Shown in pieces: positions 1-17,148 of a stretch of 17,299 nt of DNA. A program made the position numbers and the translations under genes. The stretch is from assembly GCA_003697085.1 (NCBI GenBank), contig RFFU01000121.1:1-17299 (forward strand). Reading direction: 5' to 3'. The notes beneath the pieces were generated by a model, which saw only the letters and a program-made list of their open reading frames with translations, was not told the origin of the DNA and ran no database searches. Positions within the stretch are counted from its first letter, which is position 1, and every line of letters begins with the position of its first letter. Origin of the DNA: Candidatus Hydrogenedentota bacterium. GTDB lineage: Bacteria; UBA8481; J006.

Positions 1-3000
1 CCCCCGCTCCGGCCGACGCTGACGCCGCCCGCGGCACCGGCGTCTCGGTCCGCTCCAACCGCGCCGTTATCAGAAGCAGATCCGTCAGCAGAATGCGTTC
101 GCGAGCCATCTCTTCCGCCCGGAGCCAATGGATCCGCGCCCGCGTGGTGTCGCCGCCCCGATGGTAGATGTCTCCGAGGATCCGCTCGGTTCCCACAACA
201 ATCTCGGCCATTCCCGAGGACTCGGCCATTCGCGCCAGACGCCGGCATATCTTTAGTGCAGGCTCACGCCGCCCCAGAACCGCCAGAATGTCGGCCTGCA
301 CGTAGAGCGAGCGGATACGCGCCTCCAAGAAGCCCGTGTACTCGGCCGCCCGCAACGCCCGCTCGATGTACAACTGCGCCGCGACCAGCCGGTTTCTCAG
401 GAATTCGGCATACGCGCGGTTCCGGAGAATGTCACTGACCAGGTTCAACTCGGTCGTCTGTTCGAGATACTCGTTCGCCTTCTCCAGGAACGGAGCCGCT
501 CGTTCCGCAAAACCCAGTGTGAGGTAGGCCGCGGCGATTCCGAGGTAGGCGTAAACCAGGCCGCGCCGGTCCCCGATCTTCTTCCGGATCATCGCGGCTC
601 GGCGGTGCAGTTTGACCGCTCCCGCCAGATCGCCCGTGAGTTTCGCGCAACCGGCTCGCCCGTCCAAGGCGTACGCCAGCCCCGCACGATCGTTCGCCTG
701 GCGGGAGGTGGAGTCCAGCTCGGAAAAACATCGCAACGCATCCTCGAACGCACAGACCTTGAGATAGGAGTTCCCAAGGCTGAAGAGACCTCGGGCTATG
801 TTCCGCGGATCGCCCGCCTTTCGCCTCTCCGCCAGCGACAGCTCGCCGTACCGGATCGCCTCCCGGTACTTCCCGAGATACCAGTACGCAACCGTGAGGC
901 TGTTGTAGCATTTCGCAAGCGTGTCCGAACGCGCGGCGTCGTCCCGACCGGGCAGCCGCTTCAGCAACCGCAGGGCGCGCAGCGAATGGTGCCGCGCCTC
1001 CTCGTGCCGACCTTCCCGCTGACGGCAGATCCCGATCGAGTCGCGCGCGCGCGCCGCACCGAGCCAGTCTCTTCTCCTGCGCGACACCCGCTCCGCCTCC
1101 GCGTAACTCCGGACCGCCTCGTCATACCGCCCGAGGCGCTTCCAGACCTCCGCCAGTTTCATCAGGATCCCGGCCCGTCCCGGCTCGCCGCCCCGCGGCA
1201 CGGCGGAAGCCCAGTACGCGGCCCGCTTGTAGTGCTCGATGGCCCGCTCGTTCGCGAAGACCCGGTCCGCCTCCTCCGCCAACGCCAGGTGATACCGCGC
1301 GGCCTTTTCGGGAATACCGGCCTTGTCGAAATGATACGCCAGGAAGAAGAGATCCGGATGGCGCCGCGCTTCCATCCGCTCGGCCAGCCATCGGTGAAGA
1401 TCCCGAGCCTGCCGCCGGGGAACACTGTCGTAAACCGCTTGTTGGGTCAGGGCGTGCCGGAAACGGAAATGGAACGACGAAAGGCGCATCAGGAACTGGT
1501 GGGTCGCCAGGTAATCCAGGATGCCGGCCAACCGTTTCAACGAAACCCGGACCGGCAGAATCTCGCGGACCCGACGGCAGTCGAAATCCATGCCGATCAC
1601 GGCGGCGGCCCGCAGAATGAGGCGGTATTCCTCCGAAAAACGATCCAGCCGCGCCATCATCACCGCGTTTATCGAGCCCGGGAGCCGGCCGAATCCACCG
1701 GTATCGCGCACGGCGGCGAGGAGTTCGGTCAAGAAGAAGGGGTTTCCTTGCGCGCGCTGGTGGATTTCGCGGCACTGGTCCTCGCTGAGCCGCCCCTTCC
1801 CCAGCATCCGCCGCGCAAGAAGAACCGTGTCTTCGTAGGAAAACGGCTCCAACGCGACATCGTGACTCGGCCGGAAAACGGTCCTTCCTTCGGGACGCGT
1901 CGTGACGATGACCTTGAGGCCGCGCTCCTTCCGGAAGAGGACGTCGAGAACCTGTCTCGAATGAGGATCCATCCAGTGAATGTCCTCCAGAAGAAAGAGC
2001 CCGTTTCGTTTTCTTGCGAGGATCTCCGTTACGACGCGCCGGCGCAGCTCGGGATCCGGCCGTCGCCTGCGCCCCTTCGCCTCGATTCCGAACAGTGCCC
2101 CCACCACCGAGCGTTCCGCTCCTCGAAGTCTGTTGATCCGCGAGCGCAGCCCGCGCGGTGAAATCTCCTCCGGCCAGTCGAGGCAGGAGGCGACGAGGCG
2201 GGAGAGCGTACTGAACGGTCGCTCAACCTCGTGCCGACGGCTCTCCACCCGGACACTCGCCCCGCCCCTTCCGGCCCAACGCGACTCCGCGTAATCCATA
2301 AGCGTCGTCTTGCCGATACCCGCCTCGCCCGCGATCCGGATCAAGAATCCCTCGCCGGAACCGAGTCGTCCATCGATCAGCCTCCGCTCCTTCCACCGGC
2401 CGACCATCGCCATCTGGACCTTCGCTCCGCTCGAACCGCGCCGATGGCCGCGTACCTCGAAAGCCGCGACCGGCTCGCGTTTCCCTTTCGCCTTGATCCG
2501 CCGGGAGGTCGTGTCGAAGAGCGGACGAGCCGCGTTGATCGTCTCCGCACCCGCCAGAATCCGCCCCCAGCGTGCCGCGGCCATACACCGCGCCGCGGTG
2601 TTCACCGCGTCTCCCATTATGGTGTACTCCCGCCGGGTCGCCGCACCCACCATCCCGCAGAAGACGTCCCCCGTTTGGATTCCGATCCTGGACCTGAGCC
2701 GGAGCCGCACTTCTTTACCCGCATCCAGGAGCGCAAGGGCGGCGTTGAGCGCACCTTCCTCGTCGCGTTCCCTCCCCACCGGCGCGCCGAAGAACCCCAG
2801 AATCTTCAGGCCCTTGTCGCAGAGATCGACGCGCGAGAAGACACCACCGTACGTCCGGAGAATCCGGTTGACGCGGCGGAGATACCGTGTCATCGAATCG
2901 CGATAGCGCGTCGATGACCGGCCCGCCGCGGCGTCGTCCGCGGAGTCTTCCCAGCCCGCGACGTTCAGAAAGAGTGCCGTGACCCGCCTCCGTTCGAAAA

Positions 3001-3760
3001 GCCACGCACTCCCTTCCCGCAGGTACGCGAGGCGTTCGGCCACGGTGGGCGGAAGGAATCTGCTGTTCAGGCGTTTCAAAGCGGCGCGTTTCGAAGCCGG
3101 GATCGGCGGATACCATTCCGAACGTTCCGATCCGGTCAGGCGGCATCTCCGGAGCGAGAGCCGAACGAACCCTTTTCGTACCCCGCTTAATGCGAGCGCC
3201 TTGGCGAAGGCGGGGGTGGCCAGCAGTTCCCCGCTCGAGGCTGCGGCTTCGCAGCGCGCAAGACACTCCAGGTCCCTCCCCGCGATAACGTATTCAAGTT
3301 GACCAACCCCCAGATCCGCAATGAATCCAACGATGCTTCCCGAGTGAAGCGCCACCTTGAGGCGCAGCTTCACGCGGCTCCCCTCCACCCCCAGCGGCGG
3401 CAGGGCGCGTGTGGATTCGATCAGCCGCCGGCCGCAAACGGCTGCCCGTTCCGCGGCGGCGCGCGGCTCCGAAGGAAAATAAACGAGAAGCGCATCACCG
3501 CCGAATTTCAGCACGCTCCCTCCGTGCTCGCCGATGATCGCAAGGTACCGTGAGAAGCAACGTGAAACCGCGTCGGTCAGTATCTCAGCCCCCTCGTCCC
3601 CGGTCACCGCCAGCCGCTCGGAAAGTTCCGTGAATCCCGATATATCGGCATAGAGGAAGGCTCCCTCCAGCGCCTCGAAGCCGTCCTGGTTCCCCCGCAG
3701 GACGGCGGCGACAACGTGCGGCGGCAGGAAAGGAAAAGCGGAAGTCGAAACCGCAGTCAT
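1..3760 (-). CDS. sAC-like tandem adenylate cyclase / P-loop ATPase / TPR protein, C-terminus cut by window edge
   Basis: At least 1253 residues are visible, and the frame is still open at base 1. Cyclase domain 1 (about residues 32-200) has both metal Asp motifs, YADISGFT (D39) and LKFGGDALLVYF (D89, with K85). Its usual transition-state Asn is replaced (GRDLECLAR, R169 kept). Cyclase domain 2 (about 255-435) lacks the metal Asp residues but keeps DKGLKILGFFG (K316) and EYTIMGDAVNTAAR (T380, N387, R391). A P-loop ATPase follows, with Walker A GEAGIGKTT (478-486), Walker B FLLEDIHWMD (about 589-598) and the FRHALTQQAVYD segment typical of this family. From about 830 the chain is TPR-like repeats. 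The predicted role is soluble, cytosolic conversion of ATP to cAMP, regulated through the ATPase/TPR part. ATG 3760 is chosen because an in-frame TAA lies 22 codons upstream with no good start between. The ribosome site is weak. The AsmA gene is 135 nt upstream on the same strand, so the two may be cotranscribed. Confidence 0.93.
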   Translation of the reverse strand, partial: MTAVSTSAFPFLPPHVVAAVLRGNQDGFEALEGAFLYADISGFTELSERLAVTGDEGAEILTDAVSRCFSRYLAIIGEHGGSVLKFGGDALLVYFPSEPRAAAERAAVCGRRLIESTRALPPLGVEGSRVKLRLKVALHSGSIVGFIADLGVGQLEYVIAGRDLECLARCEAAASSGELLATPAFAKALALSGVRKGFVRLSLRRCRLTGSERSEWYPPIPASKRAALKRLNSRFLPPTVAERLAYLREGSAWLFERRRVTALFLNVAGWEDSADDAAAGRSSTRYRDSMTRYLRRVNRILRTYGGVFSRVDLCDKGLKILGFFGAPVGRERDEEGALNAALALLDAGKEVRLRLRSRIGIQTGDVFCGMVGAATRREYTIMGDAVNTAARCMAAARWGRILAGAETINAARPLFDTTSRRIKAKGKREPVAAFEVRGHRRGSSGAKVQMAMVGRWKERRLIDGRLGSGEGFLIRIAGEAGIGKTTLMDYAESRWAGRGGASVRVESRRHEVERPFSTLSRLVASCLDWPEEISPRGLRSRINRLRGAERSVVGALFGIEAKGRRRRPDPELRRRVVTEILARKRNGLFLLEDIHWMDPHSRQVLDVLFRKERGLKVIVTTRPEGRTVFRPSHDVALEPFSYEDTVLLARRMLGKGRLSEDQCREIHQRAQGNPFFLTELLAAVRDTGGFGRLPGSINAVMMARLDRFSEEYRLILRAAAVIGMDFDCRRVREILPVRVSLKRLAGILDYLATHQFLMRLSSFHFRFRHALTQQAVYDSVPRRQARDLHRWLAERMEARRHPDLFFLAYHFDKAGIPEKAARYHLALAEEADRVFANERAIEHYKRAAYWASAVPRGGEPGRAGILMKLAEVWKRLGRYDEAVRSYAEAERVSRRRRDWLGAARARDSIGICRQREGRHEEARHHSLRALRLLKRLPGRDDAARSDTLAKCYNSLTVAYWYLGKYREAIRYGELSLAERRKAGDPRNIARGLFSLGNSYLKVCAFEDALRCFSELDSTSRQANDRAGLAYALDGRAGCAKLTGDLAGAVKLHRRAAMIRKKIGDRRGLVYAYLGIAAAYLTLGFAERAAPFLEKANEYLEQTTELNLVSDILRNRAYAEFLRNRLVAAQLYIERALRAAEYTGFLEARIRSLYVQADILAVLGRREPALKICRRLARMAESSGMAEIVVGTERILGDIYHRGGDTTRARIHWLRAEEMARERILLTDLLLITARLERTETPVPRAASASAGAG

Positions 3761-6924: not shown

Positions 6925-7383
6925 ATGAAACGGTTTTTTATCCGGACTGGTGTTGTAGTTTTGCTCCTGGGCACAATGTCGGTTGAAGTCACACCGATCC
7001 TTGCCGCCACGAAAAAGGCCTCGGGGCCGGAGAAAGCCCTCTTGTCTTATTTTGACTCTCTCAAAAACGGACGATTCGACCGCGCGTTGAATCTTTTGGA
7101 GGACCATGACGGCTCCGAATTCTTCACCAACTCACTCCGCCTTATCCGCAACAGCAAAAATCTCAAGGACGCCAAGGCATGGTCGGAGGCAATCGCGGCC
7201 CGCCCGAAACTTCACTCCCGCCTTCCCTTCTATCGGCAAAAGGACTTCCCCATTACCGTGACGAATCAACTCATCGTCGGAAGGCATGCTCGTGTCTGGT
7301 TTACGTACGGATCCGGATCCGATCGCTCGAAGGCTTACCAAGATTTTGTCAGGATCGACGGACGATGGTTGCTTACCTCTTGA
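6925..7383 (+). CDS. small exported protein with NTF2-like fold (predicted)
   Basis: The protein has 152 residues. It starts MKRFFIRTG, followed by a hydrophobic core and a likely signal-peptidase I site near residues 25-28 (PILAA). There is no lipobox Cys. The mature part begins with a helix containing LLSYFDSLKNGRFDRALNLL, which is typical of NTF2/SnoaL/DUF4878-like proteins (helix, then a curved sheet). It ends with FVRIDGRWLLTS, matching the usual final strand 'f.kidGrWki'. It is probably periplasmic and its ligand is unknown. ATG 6925 has a perfect AGGAGG 7 nt upstream, inside a hairpin. The GT2 gene begins 22 nt downstream, so this gene probably opens the glycosylation operon. The call rests on pattern only, without detectable catalytic residues. 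Confidence 0.8.
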   Translation: MKRFFIRTGVVVLLLGTMSVEVTPILAATKKASGPEKALLSYFDSLKNGRFDRALNLLEDHDGSEFFTNSLRLIRNSKNLKDAKAWSEAIAARPKLHSRLPFYRQKDFPITVTNQLIVGRHARVWFTYGSGSDRSKAYQDFVRIDGRWLLTS

Positions 7384-7405
7384 TCTTCCGCGGCCGAATT
7401 GCGCG

Positions 7406-8077
7406 GTGAAGATCACGGTTGCGATTCCCACGCTCAACGAAGCCGCGACGATCGGTGACGTTGTCGACGAAGTGAAACCCTATGCGGACGAAATCCTCGT
7501 CATCGACGGCGGTTCGAAGGATGGAACACCGGATATCGCACGCCGGAAAGGAGCGCGGGTTGTCTTCGACGGCGGCGGAGGAAAAGGGCGCGCCATTGTC
7601 ACGGCGGCCCGTGAGGCCTCCGGAGATATCACCGTCTTTTTCGACGCCGACGGCTCGCACGATGCCAAGGACATTCCCGCATTGGTCGCGCCCATCCAAG
7701 AGGGCCGCGCGGAGCACGTCACCGCCTCCCGCCTCCTCGGCGGCTCGTCGGAACTTCACGGTGGTTTCGACGAATTTCTCCGCCTCTCCGGCGCCGCGTT
7801 TATCACCGCGTGCATCAACCGCCGCTTCGGCATCCGTCTCTCCGACAGCCAAAACGGTTTTCGGGCGTTACGGACCGATTTCCTCCGCTCTCTCACGCTC
7901 GTCTCCCGTCACACCACGATCGAGCAGGAAATGATCGCCAAAACGCTCAAGGCAGGGGGGCGCATCGTCGAAATTCCCTCGCACGAACACCCGCGCCGGG
8001 CGGGCAAGAGTCACGTCAATCCGGTCCGGCACGCTCCGGCCTATCTCTGGAGCCTTCTTCGGGACGTGCTTTTGTGA
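7406..8077 (+). CDS. GT2 glycosyltransferase, dolichol-/polyprenyl-phosphate-sugar synthase-like
   Basis: The protein has 223 residues from GTG 7406. The start is set by the family N-terminus KITVAIPTLNEAATIGDVV. The frame opens further upstream, but that part overlaps the preceding gene. GT-A motifs are present: VIDGGSKDGT (nucleotide binding, D34) and the metal-binding FFDADGSHD (D80, D82). Downstream SDSQNGFRALR and IEIP-like EIPSHEHPRRAGKSHVNP match the DPM1-like branch. The length suits the cytosolic type without C-terminal membrane helices. The likely reaction transfers a sugar from a nucleotide-sugar to polyprenyl phosphate on the cytoplasmic face. No Shine-Dalgarno is evident, so translation may depend on coupling to the gene ending 22 nt upstream. 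Its TGA overlaps the GTG of the carbamoyltransferase (GTGA). The sugar cannot be read from the sequence. Confidence 0.88.
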   Translation: MKITVAIPTLNEAATIGDVVDEVKPYADEILVIDGGSKDGTPDIARRKGARVVFDGGGGKGRAIVTAAREASGDITVFFDADGSHDAKDIPALVAPIQEGRAEHVTASRLLGGSSELHGGFDEFLRLSGAAFITACINRRFGIRLSDSQNGFRALRTDFLRSLTLVSRHTTIEQEMIAKTLKAGGRIVEIPSHEHPRRAGKSHVNPVRHAPAYLWSLLRDVLL

Positions 8078-9846
8078 CCGCCGTTTCTTCCCACTCTCCC
8101 CTCCCTCGCGATCCCGAACTCGTCTTCGGCGTCTGGGACGGCCATGATGCCGGCGTCGCGGTCGTGCGGAATCTTCCGCGGGAACAGCGCGCCGAGGTTC
8201 TTTACGCGGCGAATGAAGAACGCTTCACGCACCGCAAACTCGATGTCGGTTTTCCCCATCACTCCCTCCGGGAAGCGGTTCGGCTTTACGGGAAACCCGA
8301 CCTCATCGTCGTTCCAACGATCGATCCGAGCAAGGTGTTGGCGCGGGCGGTTCCCGCCGCGGCACGATCCTACTACCGATTCCGCCGCCATCTCGCCGAT
8401 CCTTCCTTTTTGAACCGCTGGAAACTGCGCTTCAAATTGCTTACGACTCAACTGCCTCCGCTGCCCGGATGCCGGACGCTGACCGCTTTTCTGGCGAATT
8501 GGCGCGCCCACATCGGACCCGTTCCGATCGCAACCTGCGATCACCACGCGGCGCACCTTCGCGCCGCCTACTTCACCTCGGAATTCCCCCGGGCCACCGT
8601 CCTTTCGCTCGACGGCATCGGCGACGCCGCCTCGGGAGCCGTCGCTCTCGGTGACGGCTCCTCTCTTTCCATCCTCACTCATCTTCCGGGGCGCGATTCG
8701 ATCGGGCTCATCTATGAACACGCCACGCGCCTGCTCTCGATGCGGGAACTCGAGGACGAGGGAAAGGTAATGGCCTTGGCGATGCACGCCGACCTCGATG
8801 AGAAGGAACGCACCGTGCTTCACGACTTGATCACCGTTGAACGAACAGCCGCGGGAATCCGAATCCGCCGCGACCGCCACGCGTTTCATCGGCTCGAAGC
8901 CTTGCTGTGGAAATGGGGCCCGGAACGTTTCGCCGCCGCAGTCCAGTCCTTCGCGGAACACGCCGCCCTCGAGATCGTCCGTGCCGTGCTGGATTGGACC
9001 AAGGAGCCCCGGCTGGCTGTCGCCGGAGGTGTCTTCGCAAATATCCGAATCAATCGTCTTCTCCGCGAAACCGTCGGATCCCCCCAAACACACGATTCTC
9101 CCGCTTCACCGTGGATCTTCCCTCATATGGGAGACGGGGGGTTGGCGTTGGGAGCCGCTCTCACGCATCCCACCGTTCTCCATCCCTTCCTCGGCTCGCC
9201 GCTCGATGAAGAGGAAATCCGCCGAACGGCGGAACGAGCGCGGGGAGAGAATTTCCGAGTGAAAGAAACGAGCCCTCGAGAAATTGCACGGCTCCTCGCG
9301 GAGGAACGGGTCATCGGCTATGCTCAAGGAAGGATGGAGTTCGGACCACGGGCTCTCGGCGCCCGCTCGATTCTGGCCCGCCCCGACAACCCCGCTATTC
9401 GGGATCGGCTCAACCTCGTCCAAAAACGCCGCGTCTTCTATCAGCCTTTCTGTCCCACACTTCTTCTCCGTGAGGCCCGCGAAAGCCTCGAAAACTACGA
9501 CGGAAGAGCGGAACGGTGGATGACATCTCTTTACGGAACAATCCCGCAAAAACGAACACGCCTGGGCGGCGTTATCGGCCCCGATGGGTCGTGCCGTTGT
9601 CAGATTCTCCCGGAATCCCCCGAGACTCCGGAGGAGACACGGTACAAGGAAGTGGTGGAGGCCTTCGCGGAAGAGACCGGAATCGGAGCGCTCCTCAATA
9701 CCTCCTTCAATATCCACGGTGATCCCATCGTGCGGACGGCGAAAGATGCCTATGAAACCTTTCGAAAAAGCCGACTCGATGCTCTCGTCCTCCAGGATAT
9801 TCTGATCGAACGCAGGGAAAGGAATTCATCGTCCGAAAAAGGATGA
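8074..9846 (+). CDS. O-carbamoyltransferase, NodU/CmcH/TobZ family
   Basis: The protein has 590 residues, the normal family length. The N-terminal ASKHA/Kae1-like domain shows GVWDGHDAGVAVV (about 19-31), AANEERFTHRK (45-55), the metal-binding CDHHAAHLRAAY (H157/H158/H161) and LSLDGIGDAASG (178-188). The C-terminal domain has GRMEFGPRALGARSI (419-433) and LLNTSFNIHGDPIV. Family enzymes activate carbamoyl phosphate with ATP and transfer the carbamoyl group to a hydroxyl of a sugar or natural product. GTG 8074 is chosen because it overlaps the upstream stop by 4 nt and directly precedes the conserved N-terminus; an in-frame extension to 7810 lies inside the GT2 gene. The stop overlaps the ATG of the membrane glycosyltransferase (ATGA). 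Both neighbours are glycosyltransferases, so a glycan or lipid-linked sugar is the likely acceptor. Which hydroxyl is modified is unknown. Confidence 0.93.
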   Translation: MTAVSSHSPLPRDPELVFGVWDGHDAGVAVVRNLPREQRAEVLYAANEERFTHRKLDVGFPHHSLREAVRLYGKPDLIVVPTIDPSKVLARAVPAAARSYYRFRRHLADPSFLNRWKLRFKLLTTQLPPLPGCRTLTAFLANWRAHIGPVPIATCDHHAAHLRAAYFTSEFPRATVLSLDGIGDAASGAVALGDGSSLSILTHLPGRDSIGLIYEHATRLLSMRELEDEGKVMALAMHADLDEKERTVLHDLITVERTAAGIRIRRDRHAFHRLEALLWKWGPERFAAAVQSFAEHAALEIVRAVLDWTKEPRLAVAGGVFANIRINRLLRETVGSPQTHDSPASPWIFPHMGDGGLALGAALTHPTVLHPFLGSPLDEEEIRRTAERARGENFRVKETSPREIARLLAEERVIGYAQGRMEFGPRALGARSILARPDNPAIRDRLNLVQKRRVFYQPFCPTLLLREARESLENYDGRAERWMTSLYGTIPQKRTRLGGVIGPDGSCRCQILPESPETPEETRYKEVVEAFAEETGIGALLNTSFNIHGDPIVRTAKDAYETFRKSRLDALVLQDILIERRERNSSSEKG

Positions 9847-11978: not shown

Positions 11979-13316
11979 ATGAAACGGATTCTTCCATTTA
12001 CGGCTTATCTTCCGACGGAAAAAGGCTCCAAAATTCTCTCCCGCCTCGTCGCACCCCAATTCGATGAACTCGCCGCTCCTGTTCGGAAGGTCTTTTCCGC
12101 CTCTCACAAGAATAATTTCGTTCGTTTCGAATCCCGTCATCCTCTTCCTCGAGAACGCCGGAAAGATCCGAATGTGAGAATGTCGGTGGCCTTTCAGGAG
12201 ATTCTCGAGAAGGATCTCTTCCGAAGAGCCGATGAACCCGCTTATTATCTGCTCGAGATCAACGAAAGCGGTCAACTCGTCCGAGGAATCGTTGCCATGA
12301 TTTCCCTCGATTCCGATCTGTGCATCTTTGAAGAACTCCACGAAGGAGAAGCCGCGGACCGTATCTTTCAACTGGAACACCTCAATCTTCAAACCGCTCC
12401 GATTCTTCTCGGAGTTTCCACGGATCACAACCGAATAGGGTTCTTCGACCGGATCTGCGATCCGCTCCTGAACCGCCCGCCGCTCTTCCAGATTTCCCTT
12501 CCCTCGGGCGGTACTCACCGCGTATGGCGGATCACGGACACAGCCCATGAGATCGAACCCTGGCTCTCGCGTCAAAAGGCGGTCCTCTTCGACGGCTTGG
12601 AACGGTACCGCGCCGCCCAGAGTCTCGCCGCCAGGCTTCATTCCTCCAAAACCCTCTATTCTCCCTTCCAAACTCCCAACTTCGTTCTAGCCTGGATCGT
12701 TCCTCTCGAAAATCAACAACTCCACTTTCGAGCGCGGCACCGAGCCTTACGGACCGGCATCTCGTCCGTTCCCCCGCAACGCCTTCTCGAAGCGCTGGAG
12801 GATTTCTTCGAGATCGAACGCTATCCCTTTTCCAATAAGAAACAGAAAAACCGGGAACTCGAAAATCTGCTCGAAGAGATGGATTTCATCGGAAAACTCA
12901 ATCATTCCTACGGGCTTTATATTGGAGATGACGCGTTTTATATGCTGATGTTGCGCGATGCGGAAGCCTACGAGAGGATGCAGAATGTGCGTCATTCCCG
13001 GCGCTGGAAGCGCCTCGACATTACGATCCTCCATTCCCTCGTTTTCGAACGCATCCTGGGTTTTTCGGGCACGGAGAACGCCGTTCTCGAACGTTTTCGA
13101 ACACCGGTGGATGCTCATTATGCGATCCAAAGCGTCGATGAGGGCGAATCGGAAGCCGCATTTCTTCTCAATCCCCCCCCCGTGGCGCATCTCATCGAGA
13201 TCGCCGAGGCCCGCGAGTGCATCCCCACCCACTCCGTCCTTCCTACGACGCGTCCCTGGGTCGGGACTCTGATGGCGCCGGTCGGAGCCGACTGTTTCGT
13301 CGCCGACCCCACATAA
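11979..13316 (+). CDS. divergent DUF1015 (SerK-like) family protein lacking the DGHHR motif
   Basis: The protein has 445 residues, near the family length. DUF1015 landmarks are in order: ILPFTAYLP at the N-terminus, EELHEGEAADRIFQLEHLN then PILLG (about 118-145), THRVWRITD (179-187), a Y-rich C-terminal half, and an ECIPTHSV segment near the end. In typical members the centre reads 'ADGHHRY'; here it is FDGLERYRAA (D205, L207, E208, R209), so both histidines are gone. The usual 'aPpYDVi' near residue 25 reads APQFDELA, and the C-terminal 'PxKSTyFyPK' reads PTHSVLPTTR. An archaeal member is a free serine kinase (SerK), but this protein probably lacks that activity or has a different one. ATG 11979 has AAAGGA upstream. 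aroB begins 22 nt downstream, so the genes are likely cotranscribed. A C9 run lies within codons 399-401. Confidence 0.75.
   Translation: MKRILPFTAYLPTEKGSKILSRLVAPQFDELAAPVRKVFSASHKNNFVRFESRHPLPRERRKDPNVRMSVAFQEILEKDLFRRADEPAYYLLEINESGQLVRGIVAMISLDSDLCIFEELHEGEAADRIFQLEHLNLQTAPILLGVSTDHNRIGFFDRICDPLLNRPPLFQISLPSGGTHRVWRITDTAHEIEPWLSRQKAVLFDGLERYRAAQSLAARLHSSKTLYSPFQTPNFVLAWIVPLENQQLHFRARHRALRTGISSVPPQRLLEALEDFFEIERYPFSNKKQKNRELENLLEEMDFIGKLNHSYGLYIGDDAFYMLMLRDAEAYERMQNVRHSRRWKRLDITILHSLVFERILGFSGTENAVLERFRTPVDAHYAIQSVDEGESEAAFLLNPPPVAHLIEIAEARECIPTHSVLPTTRPWVGTLMAPVGADCFVADPT
13173..13181 (+). repeat. C9 homopolymer inside the DUF1015-like gene
   Basis: Nine consecutive C encode three Pro (residues 399-401). 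Slippage by one base would change the last 44 residues, including the region aligned to the family's conserved C-terminal motif. It could be a contingency tract or simply a sequencing-error hotspot. The downstream frame still matches the family, so the present reading looks correct. Confidence 0.6.
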
Positions 13317-13338
13317 ACCCGACCGAAAGGAGACGCTT

Positions 13339-14403
13339 GTGAATCCCACTCGCCGGGGGAACGCAACCAAGGTGCTCGTACCGATTCCGGGAAAGCGCCG
13401 TTACTCGGTCACCATTGGCTATCGTCTTGGAAATCCCGGTTTACTACCCCCCGGTCGGCGAACGGTTCTTCTTTACGACCGCCGCCTCACGCCCCCGAAC
13501 CTTCGCACCGTCGCCCGCCTCGCCCTCCCGTCCGGAGAAGCGGCGAAATCCTTTGCTTCCTACAAAAAGATCATGAACACGCTCATCGAAGCGGATACGG
13601 GCCATCCCCTCCTGGTGGTCGGTTACGGCGGCGGGGCCACCTGCGACGCCGCCGGTTTCGCCGCCGGCACCTATCGCCGTGGCATCCCCTTTTTTCTGAT
13701 TCCGACGACGCTTCTGGCAATGGTGGACGCCTCCGTCGGGGGAAAAACGGCGATCAATCATCCGCGAGCCAAGAATATGATCGGGGTCTTTCATCAACCG
13801 TGCGGCGTGTGGGCTGACTTGCTGTCCCTCGAGACGTTACCGGCACGCCAGATGCGTTCCGGAATGGCCGAAGTCATAAAGCACGGGTTCATCGCCTCTC
13901 CCGATCTCCTCGAGCGCCTGAGGCGTCATCCCGCCGACCACCTCGATCCGAGATCGCCTTTCTTGTGGAAAGCTGTGGAAGAGAGCGTGCGGATCAAGGC
14001 AGCGGTCGTCAAGGCGGATGAGCGTGAGACACGAGGAAAGCGCGAATTTCTCAATTTCGGCCACACGATCGGCCACGCAATCGAGGCCGTTCATCGTTTT
14101 CGCGGCGTCACACACGGGGAAGCCGTTGCGATCGGAATGGCCGCCGCGGCGCGCATCGGACGCCACCTTTTGGGATATGACGCGGTCGATCTTCTCGAGG
14201 AAATCCTCTCCGCCTACCGCCTTCCGACGCGCCTCTCCGGGGAACCCATCTCCGATCTCGTCTTCGCTATGAAGAAGGATAAAAAACGCAGGACTGGTCG
14301 AACTCGAATGACCCTCTTGGCCGGCCCGGGGAATCCCCGCGTCGTTGATGCCGTCCCCTTGCGCCTGGTAAAATCCGTTCTCAAGGAGTTGGGAGGTGGA
14401 TGA
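13339..14403 (+). CDS. aroB: 3-dehydroquinate synthase
   Basis: The protein has 354 residues. It converts DAHP to 3-dehydroquinate in the shikimate pathway (EC 4.2.3.4) in the cytoplasm, using NAD and a divalent metal. The NAD-binding glycine run GYGGGATCDAAGFAAGTYRRG is followed by IPTTLLAMVDASVGGKTAIN and KNMIGVFHQP. The metal ligands are E178 (GMAEVIKHG), H242 (LNFGHTIGH) and H259 (THGEAVAIGM). The R235/N239/H242/H246 spacing fits true dehydroquinate synthases, which argues against the related natural-product sugar-phosphate cyclases. The N-terminal 45 residues are less conserved. GTG 13339 has AAAGGAG just upstream. The gene follows the DUF1015-like gene by 22 nt, and its TGA overlaps the start of the LolA-like gene. 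No other shikimate gene is in the window. Confidence 0.95.
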   Translation: MNPTRRGNATKVLVPIPGKRRYSVTIGYRLGNPGLLPPGRRTVLLYDRRLTPPNLRTVARLALPSGEAAKSFASYKKIMNTLIEADTGHPLLVVGYGGGATCDAAGFAAGTYRRGIPFFLIPTTLLAMVDASVGGKTAINHPRAKNMIGVFHQPCGVWADLLSLETLPARQMRSGMAEVIKHGFIASPDLLERLRRHPADHLDPRSPFLWKAVEESVRIKAAVVKADERETRGKREFLNFGHTIGHAIEAVHRFRGVTHGEAVAIGMAAAARIGRHLLGYDAVDLLEEILSAYRLPTRLSGEPISDLVFAMKKDKKRRTGRTRMTLLAGPGNPRVVDAVPLRLVKSVLKELGGG

Positions 14404-16404: not shown

Positions 16405-17148
16405 CTATCCCTCCCCCTCAACGTAAACAACAACTACTGTTACGTTGTCTGGAGCACCTCGCGCAAGACTTTGATCAATCAGATACCGGCAGGTCCGCTC
16501 CGGTTCATCGCCTGTCGCCAGAGCCTGTGCGATCTCCTCATCCGACACGCATTTTTGAAGGCCGTCACTGCATAACAGAAAACGATCTCCAACCTTTACC
16601 GGAAAAAAATCGATGTCCGGCGCTCGAAACTCGGCCATTCCCAATGCCTGCATCAACCACCCGGCCCGTTCGTGATGTTCAGCTTCTTCCCGCGTAATTC
16701 TTCCTGCTTGAACGGCGTACTCAACCCAGGTGTGATCACAGGTCAATAACTCGAAGCGGTCTTCCTGGAGTCGGTAGATCCTTGAATCTCCAACGTGGAG
16801 CGAATAGGCGAGGTCTTTACGGAAATAAAGCGCAGAAAACGTCGTCGCCATTCCTTTTCTCTCCCCCTGCGCTTCCTCGAGAAGAACCTCGTTGGCGCGA
16901 ACAACGGCGTCACGAAGAACGAAGGCGAGGTCCCGCTCAGTTTGAACCTCCCGCGAAATCTCTTCCTCGAACACCTCCAGTGCTCGACTCGACGCAACTT
17001 CGCCCGCAGCCTCCCCTCCACAACCGTCCGCTACGGCAACCCATCGGTCATCGCCAAGAGACGCAATCTTGAACGCATCTTCGTTGTTTTTTCTCACCCG
17101 ACCGATGTCAGTCAACCCCGCGAAGCGGAAGGTCGCTGCACTTCCCAT
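16405..17148 (-). CDS. PP2C-type Ser/Thr protein phosphatase (Stp1/PrpC-like)
   Basis: The protein has 247 residues and consists of a single PP2C domain, as in bacterial Stp1/PrpC. It removes phosphate from Ser/Thr of proteins phosphorylated by Hanks-type kinases and is metal dependent and cytosolic. All motifs are present: GRVRKNNEDAF (residues 16-26), VADGCGGEAAGE (39-50, D41), GMATTFSALYF (99-109), LHVGDSRIYRL (117-127), TCDHTWV (136-142), LLCSDGLQKCVSDEEI (191-206, D195) and GAPDNVTVVVV (231-241, D234). The usual DGMGG reads DGCGG. ATG 17148 is the first usable start, since an in-frame TAA lies 6 codons upstream, but its ribosome site is poor. It is convergent with the propeller gene, with stops 43 nt apart. 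No kinase is visible; it may lie beyond the right edge. Confidence 0.95.
   Translation of the reverse strand: MGSAATFRFAGLTDIGRVRKNNEDAFKIASLGDDRWVAVADGCGGEAAGEVASSRALEVFEEEISREVQTERDLAFVLRDAVVRANEVLLEEAQGERKGMATTFSALYFRKDLAYSLHVGDSRIYRLQEDRFELLTCDHTWVEYAVQAGRITREEAEHHERAGWLMQALGMAEFRAPDIDFFPVKVGDRFLLCSDGLQKCVSDEEIAQALATGDEPERTCRYLIDQSLARGAPDNVTVVVVYVEGEG

Follow-up and report, generated by a model that had tools for sequence, protein, structure and literature searches.

A soluble adenylyl cyclase-like tandem cyclase from a Hydrogenedentota bacterium combines a single composite active-site pattern with a P-loop NTPase and TPR region

The window, the whole 17,299-nucleotide stretch of DNA analyzed here, corresponds to bases 1 to 17299 of contig C17 in a 3.2-Mb draft genome of a Candidatus Hydrogenedentota bacterium. 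A single long minus-strand frame runs without a stop from position 3760 to the contig end and encodes 1253 residues from the first ATG, the 3' end of the gene being cut (Table 1). A Pfam search of this protein finds two Guanylate_cyc (PF00211) stretches (herein C1 and C2), a P-loop NTPase with AAA_16, NACHT, and NB-ARC matches, and a TPR region. The NTPase carries Walker A (GEAGIGKTT, residues 478-486), Walker B (LFLLEDIHWMD, residues 588-598), and GNPFF (residue 672) motifs, a set that we take to be typical of STAND NTPases. Two features of proteins resembling soluble adenylyl cyclase (sAC) are present in the protein: two cyclase homology domains in one chain, and a P-loop NTPase (STAND) with C-terminal repeats behind the cyclase pair. 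The first-pass annotation of this DNA had not picked up the NTPase or the TPR repeats (about residues 450-1220).

Table 1. Coordinates in the window of the tandem cyclase gene, its domains, and its motifs
Feature	Position	Strand	Remarks
sAC-like tandem cyclase/P-loop NTPase/TPR protein	2..3760	-	Full-length relatives in genomes G030 and G177
C1 cyclase domain, about residues 29-188	3197..3676	-	D39, D89, K85, K135; without Asn (E165)
LKFGGD motif	3494..3511	-	K85 = human K95, D89 = human D99
AGRDLECLAR	3254..3283	-	E165 at Asn position, A168 at human R176, R169 at canonical transition-state Arg column
C2 cyclase domain, about residues 255-440	2441..2998	-	T380, N387, R391; no metal Asp (N266, L318)
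FSRVDLCDKG	2810..2839	-	R310 at human K334, K316 at human K340
EYTIMGDAVNTAAR	2588..2629	-	T380, N387, R391 of C2 half-site
P-loop NTPase, putative STAND type; end approximate	1511..2404	-	AAA_16, NACHT, NB-ARC matches and motifs
TPR repeat region, about residues 838-1219	104..1249	-	TPR_12, 8 stretches, 4e-20; also matches to TPR chains

The neighboring genes in the window (AsmA/DUF748, glycosyltransferase, carbamoyltransferase, DUF1015, 3-dehydroquinate synthase, and LolA) show no functional link to the cyclase, and the frames around its relatives in four other genomes (G030, G177, G365, and G061), inspected by eye, have no obvious common neighbor. Elsewhere on the plus strand of the window, a glycosyltransferase family 2 frame overlaps a NodU/CmcH-type carbamoyltransferase frame (7286-9846), the true start of the second probably lying further downstream, and a DUF1015 protein adjoins a 3-dehydroquinate synthase-like protein (11979-14403). 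A minus-strand frame (16405-17148) resembles a PP2C-type protein phosphatase, as judged by eye from its translation. The source genome (G000) holds five further class III cyclase domain matches besides its 21 cNMP-binding domains, a cAMP-rich signaling set.

The closest structural counterpart of the cyclase pair is human sAC. A phmmer comparison of the two proteins gives an E-value of 6e-22, and the best profile match in the PDB is human sAC over both domains (E about 1e-64; best single-domain cyclase, 8.5e-40). The AlphaFold2 model of the C1-C2 pair (pLDDT 89.4, pTM 0.90) retrieves human sAC at all of ranks 1-24 in Foldseek, and VIA Z values fall from human sAC (39.4) through AC9 (34.4) to the Pseudomonas aeruginosa protein 6yii (27.7). 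In a tree of individual domains, the C1 domains, including the human one, form one group and the C2 domains another (support 100 and 96); this grouping persists when the motif columns are removed (C1, 100/99; C2, 93/84). Each human domain groups with its bacterial counterpart, so human sAC and the bacterial proteins inherited the tandem from a common ancestor, and the C1/C2 duplication is most likely older than the split of human sAC from the bacterial family. Profile, structure, and domain tree therefore agree on the animal-type domain order and intramolecular C1-C2 arrangement that had been proposed for this protein. Human sAC is the one eukaryotic sequence in the tree, too few to fix its exact place; it stands beside proteins from genomes G365, G083, G061, and G332 (SH-aLRT 93), and a constrained tree joining it to the window lineage is as good (p-AU 0.52). 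The suggestion that the locus is informative for the origin of this architecture is weakened, since the bacterial architecture was already described and the human placement is not firm.

To place the active-site residues, human sAC was aligned by three agreeing routes: phmmer, a profile of 21 bacterial tandem homologs against the PDB, and MAFFT with 91 bacterial homologs. The resulting equivalences (window = human) are D39 = D47, D89 = D99, K135 = K144, T380 = T405, N387 = N412, and R391 = R416. The Asn position in C1 is occupied by E165, C2 carrying the Asn there; the metal positions of C2 are N266 and L318, so both metal Asp are missing from this domain. With metal Asp and no Asn in C1, and N387/R391 and no metal Asp in C2, the pair can form at most one active site. 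All three routes bear out the complementary loss of catalytic residues noticed earlier, with D39/D89 only in C1 and T380/N387/R391 in C2, and the protein has the sAC-type single composite site: an Asp pair in C1, Asn and Arg in C2, and a C2 without metal Asp. K135 had been overlooked; its human counterpart, K144, is named as a PPi receptor in a 2026 study (PMC12867704). Two earlier assignments in C2 have to be corrected. K316 had been equated with the base-recognition Lys, human K334, and the M337 position had been read as K319; the gap-free alignment, anchored by the shared DKG, instead gives K334 = R310 and M337 = L313, with K316 at K340 of the FDKG loop and K319 at S343. Of the two elements of a class IIIb adenylyl cyclase, Thr/Ser in C2 and the base-recognition Lys, the protein accordingly keeps T380 and has R310 in place of the Lys.

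This residue pattern is widespread. The family profile matches at 1e-40 or better in 88 of 386 genomes sampled across the domain, many of the matches covering the full pair, and all searches together yielded 91 distinct bacterial tandem pairs, the window protein included; the aligned homologs include Chloroflexota, Actinomycetota, a WOR-3 bacterium, and a Zixiibacterium. Both C1 Asp are present in 91/91 and the C2 Asn and Arg in 89/91, and the strict one-site pattern is found in 78/91. The single composite site is the rule of the bacterial family, not an oddity of this protein. The K334 position is more variable, with Lys in 37/91 and either Lys or Arg in 48/91; the nearest relatives have Ser (G030) and Ala (G177). 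One genome in the set (G031) shows an expansion that is unusual for a genome of 2.1 Mb: about ten or more of its proteins, 1150-1400 residues long, are sAC-like tandem cyclase/NTPase/TPR proteins (for example L074, L105, L128, L034, and L054), and the profile finds 23 matches there with an E-value of 1e-15 or better.

Human sAC binds bicarbonate through K95 and R176, the latter pairing with D99 in the empty site. The first-pass annotation saw a kept K95/R176 pair in K85 and R169 and proposed a bicarbonate-activated sAC with a human-type bicarbonate site. The first half of this equation stands, K85 being aligned with K95; the second does not, as the R176 position is A168 and R169 aligns with L177. 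The Arg offset from the Gly of the VIG motif differs likewise (human R176 at G+7, window R169 at G+8), and because human C1 is one residue longer from the Gly to the next strand, a gap that put R169 on R176 would have to run in the opposite direction. A joint alignment of C1 and C2 clarifies the register: K95 shares a column with K334, D47 with N298, and D173 with N412, while R176 lies one column ahead of R416 and L177 lies in the R416 column. These columns place R169 at the catalytic Arg position of homodimeric class III cyclases. A rough motif count of 22 other class III domains in the sampled genomes finds 17 with Lys at the K95 position and 16 with Arg at the catalytic position, 12 of the domains having the two together; Lys at the K95 position is common enough to be considered an ancestral residue rather than a bicarbonate marker. 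K85 and R169 are best read as remnants of an ancestral second active site.

The family as a whole points the same way. Lys occupies the K95 position in 40/91 bacterial homologs, the family tree requires at least 13 changes there, and both nearest relatives have Arg; at the R169 position, G030 has Glu and G177 has Arg. None of the 91 tandem homologs combines K95 with R176, and of this mammalian-type pair the window protein has the Lys (K85) and not the Arg (A168). The count agrees with the 2026 report, which describes one or both of K95/R176 as missing in most non-mammalian sACs and the sea urchin and salmon enzymes as responding to pH, not bicarbonate; there, giving the sea urchin enzyme the Arg in addition to its Lys (N198R) leaves it bicarbonate-insensitive (PMC12867704), so even a genuine K/R pair is insufficient. 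A search of the draft genome for carbonic anhydrase of the beta type found none, and a search of the available literature on Chloroflexus cyclase and bicarbonate found no paper. What speaks for a bicarbonate site is the identity of K85, the basic character of R169 one residue off the R176 position, and T380. The last lies at the human Thr place, making a bicarbonate response by another route conceivable, and we take it to be the Thr of an older proposal. That proposal, as summarized in PMC3383692, put forward Thr in sAC-like cyclases as a predictor of bicarbonate response. Set against A168, the lability of K85, and the empty family count, these points leave a bicarbonate-activated enzyme with a human-type site improbable; a kept bicarbonate site is not borne out by the alignment, and the sequence gives no indication of bicarbonate control. 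It is more improbable still that the degenerate site of bacterial sAC-like tandems, here with K85 and the adjacent R169, is an ancestral sensor of anions or pH and that the mammalian bicarbonate site arose from it later, when the Arg moved by one residue.

The replacement of the base-recognition Lys by R310 (Ser/Ala in the nearest relatives) makes the substrate choice, and even the activity, of the protein uncertain, and it bears on two further readings. The tandem might be catalytically dead, acting as a sensor that binds ATP and governs the NTPase/TPR part; the loss of the Lys in the window lineage would suit this, as would 6yii, a cyclase-like ATP-binding protein whose match to the fold (Z 27.7) counts against a functional cyclase. 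A dead site is expected to lose some of its residues, however, and here D39, D89, N387, and R391 are all kept, as is K135 at the position of K144; this full retention makes a dead tandem unlikely. Alternatively, an active enzyme with relaxed or changed base choice might make a product other than cAMP. R310 and the Ser and Ala of the relatives are compatible with this, and Pycsar pyrimidine cyclases match weakly (PycC, 2.9e-12), a similarity that reflects general class III kinship. Because T380 is kept, the Glu/Cys pair of guanylyl cyclases is absent, and 48/91 homologs have Lys or Arg at the K334 position, we regard a different product as unlikely.

Given the domain order, residue pattern, predicted fold, and kinship described above, we consider it likely that the protein is a bacterial sAC-like enzyme with a one-site intramolecular C1-C2 pair, a degenerate second site, a STAND-type NTPase/TPR regulator, and cAMP as its most likely product. 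C1 and C2 of one chain would form the catalytic unit, in which both metal Asp come from C1 and the Thr, Asn, and Arg from C2, with the pseudo-symmetric second site degenerate. The architecture suggests that the NTPase/TPR part probably controls the cyclase: binding of a signal by the TPR region would trigger an NTP-driven rearrangement of the NTPase, probably of the STAND type, that switches the cyclase. The product, most likely cAMP, could then reach the many CRP-type receptors of the same genome, in which 21 cNMP-binding domains are found. With this protein, a large bacterial family whose C1-C2 tandem has a common origin with that of animal sAC gains a member from a sparsely sampled lineage. 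The counts across this family show that having one composite active site is an old and general trait; the bicarbonate residues are neither old nor general. The comparison also calls for caution, since Lys and Arg in a degenerate class III domain can be catalytic remnants and alone are no mark of a bicarbonate site.

Two other assignments were rejected. Matches to anti-phage (Pycsar) cyclases are weak and confined to the cyclase domains, and the TOMM system kinase/cyclase fusion model (TIGR03903) scores 126 bits, far under its cut-off of 705.75; its partial match over cyclase, NTPase, and TPR begins at residue 256 and omits C1. P. aeruginosa 6yii, called an ATP-binding protein by its depositors, resembles most of the pair in its class III cyclase-like fold and is a lower match than human sAC.

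Human sAC (ADCY10; 4clf/4usu) shares with the window protein the C1-C2 tandem, the one site, the same residue loss, K144 (= K135), the DKG loop, and a STAND/P-loop part behind the cyclase pair; for the full-length human enzyme, a STAND domain with a P-loop is predicted, according to PMC12802110. The two differ in sequence (23% identity over the pair), in the replacement of K334 by Arg, R176 by Ala, and M337 by Leu, and in the C1-C2 linker, which is shorter in the window protein. Much closer are the proteins of G030 (L139:7151-11050) and G177 (L140), which are 40-42% identical to the window protein and have AAA_16 and TPR in the same order; they differ in having Arg at the K95 position and Ser or Ala at the K334 position. 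Bacterial sACs with a P-loop NTPase are already on record, as noted in PMC6660944, which cites Roelofs and Van Haastert 2002 and Kobayashi, Buck and Levin 2004. The window protein has a like architecture and represents a sparsely sampled lineage (the set includes only 2 genomes of its phylum); it is a further member of this bacterial sAC family already described in outline.
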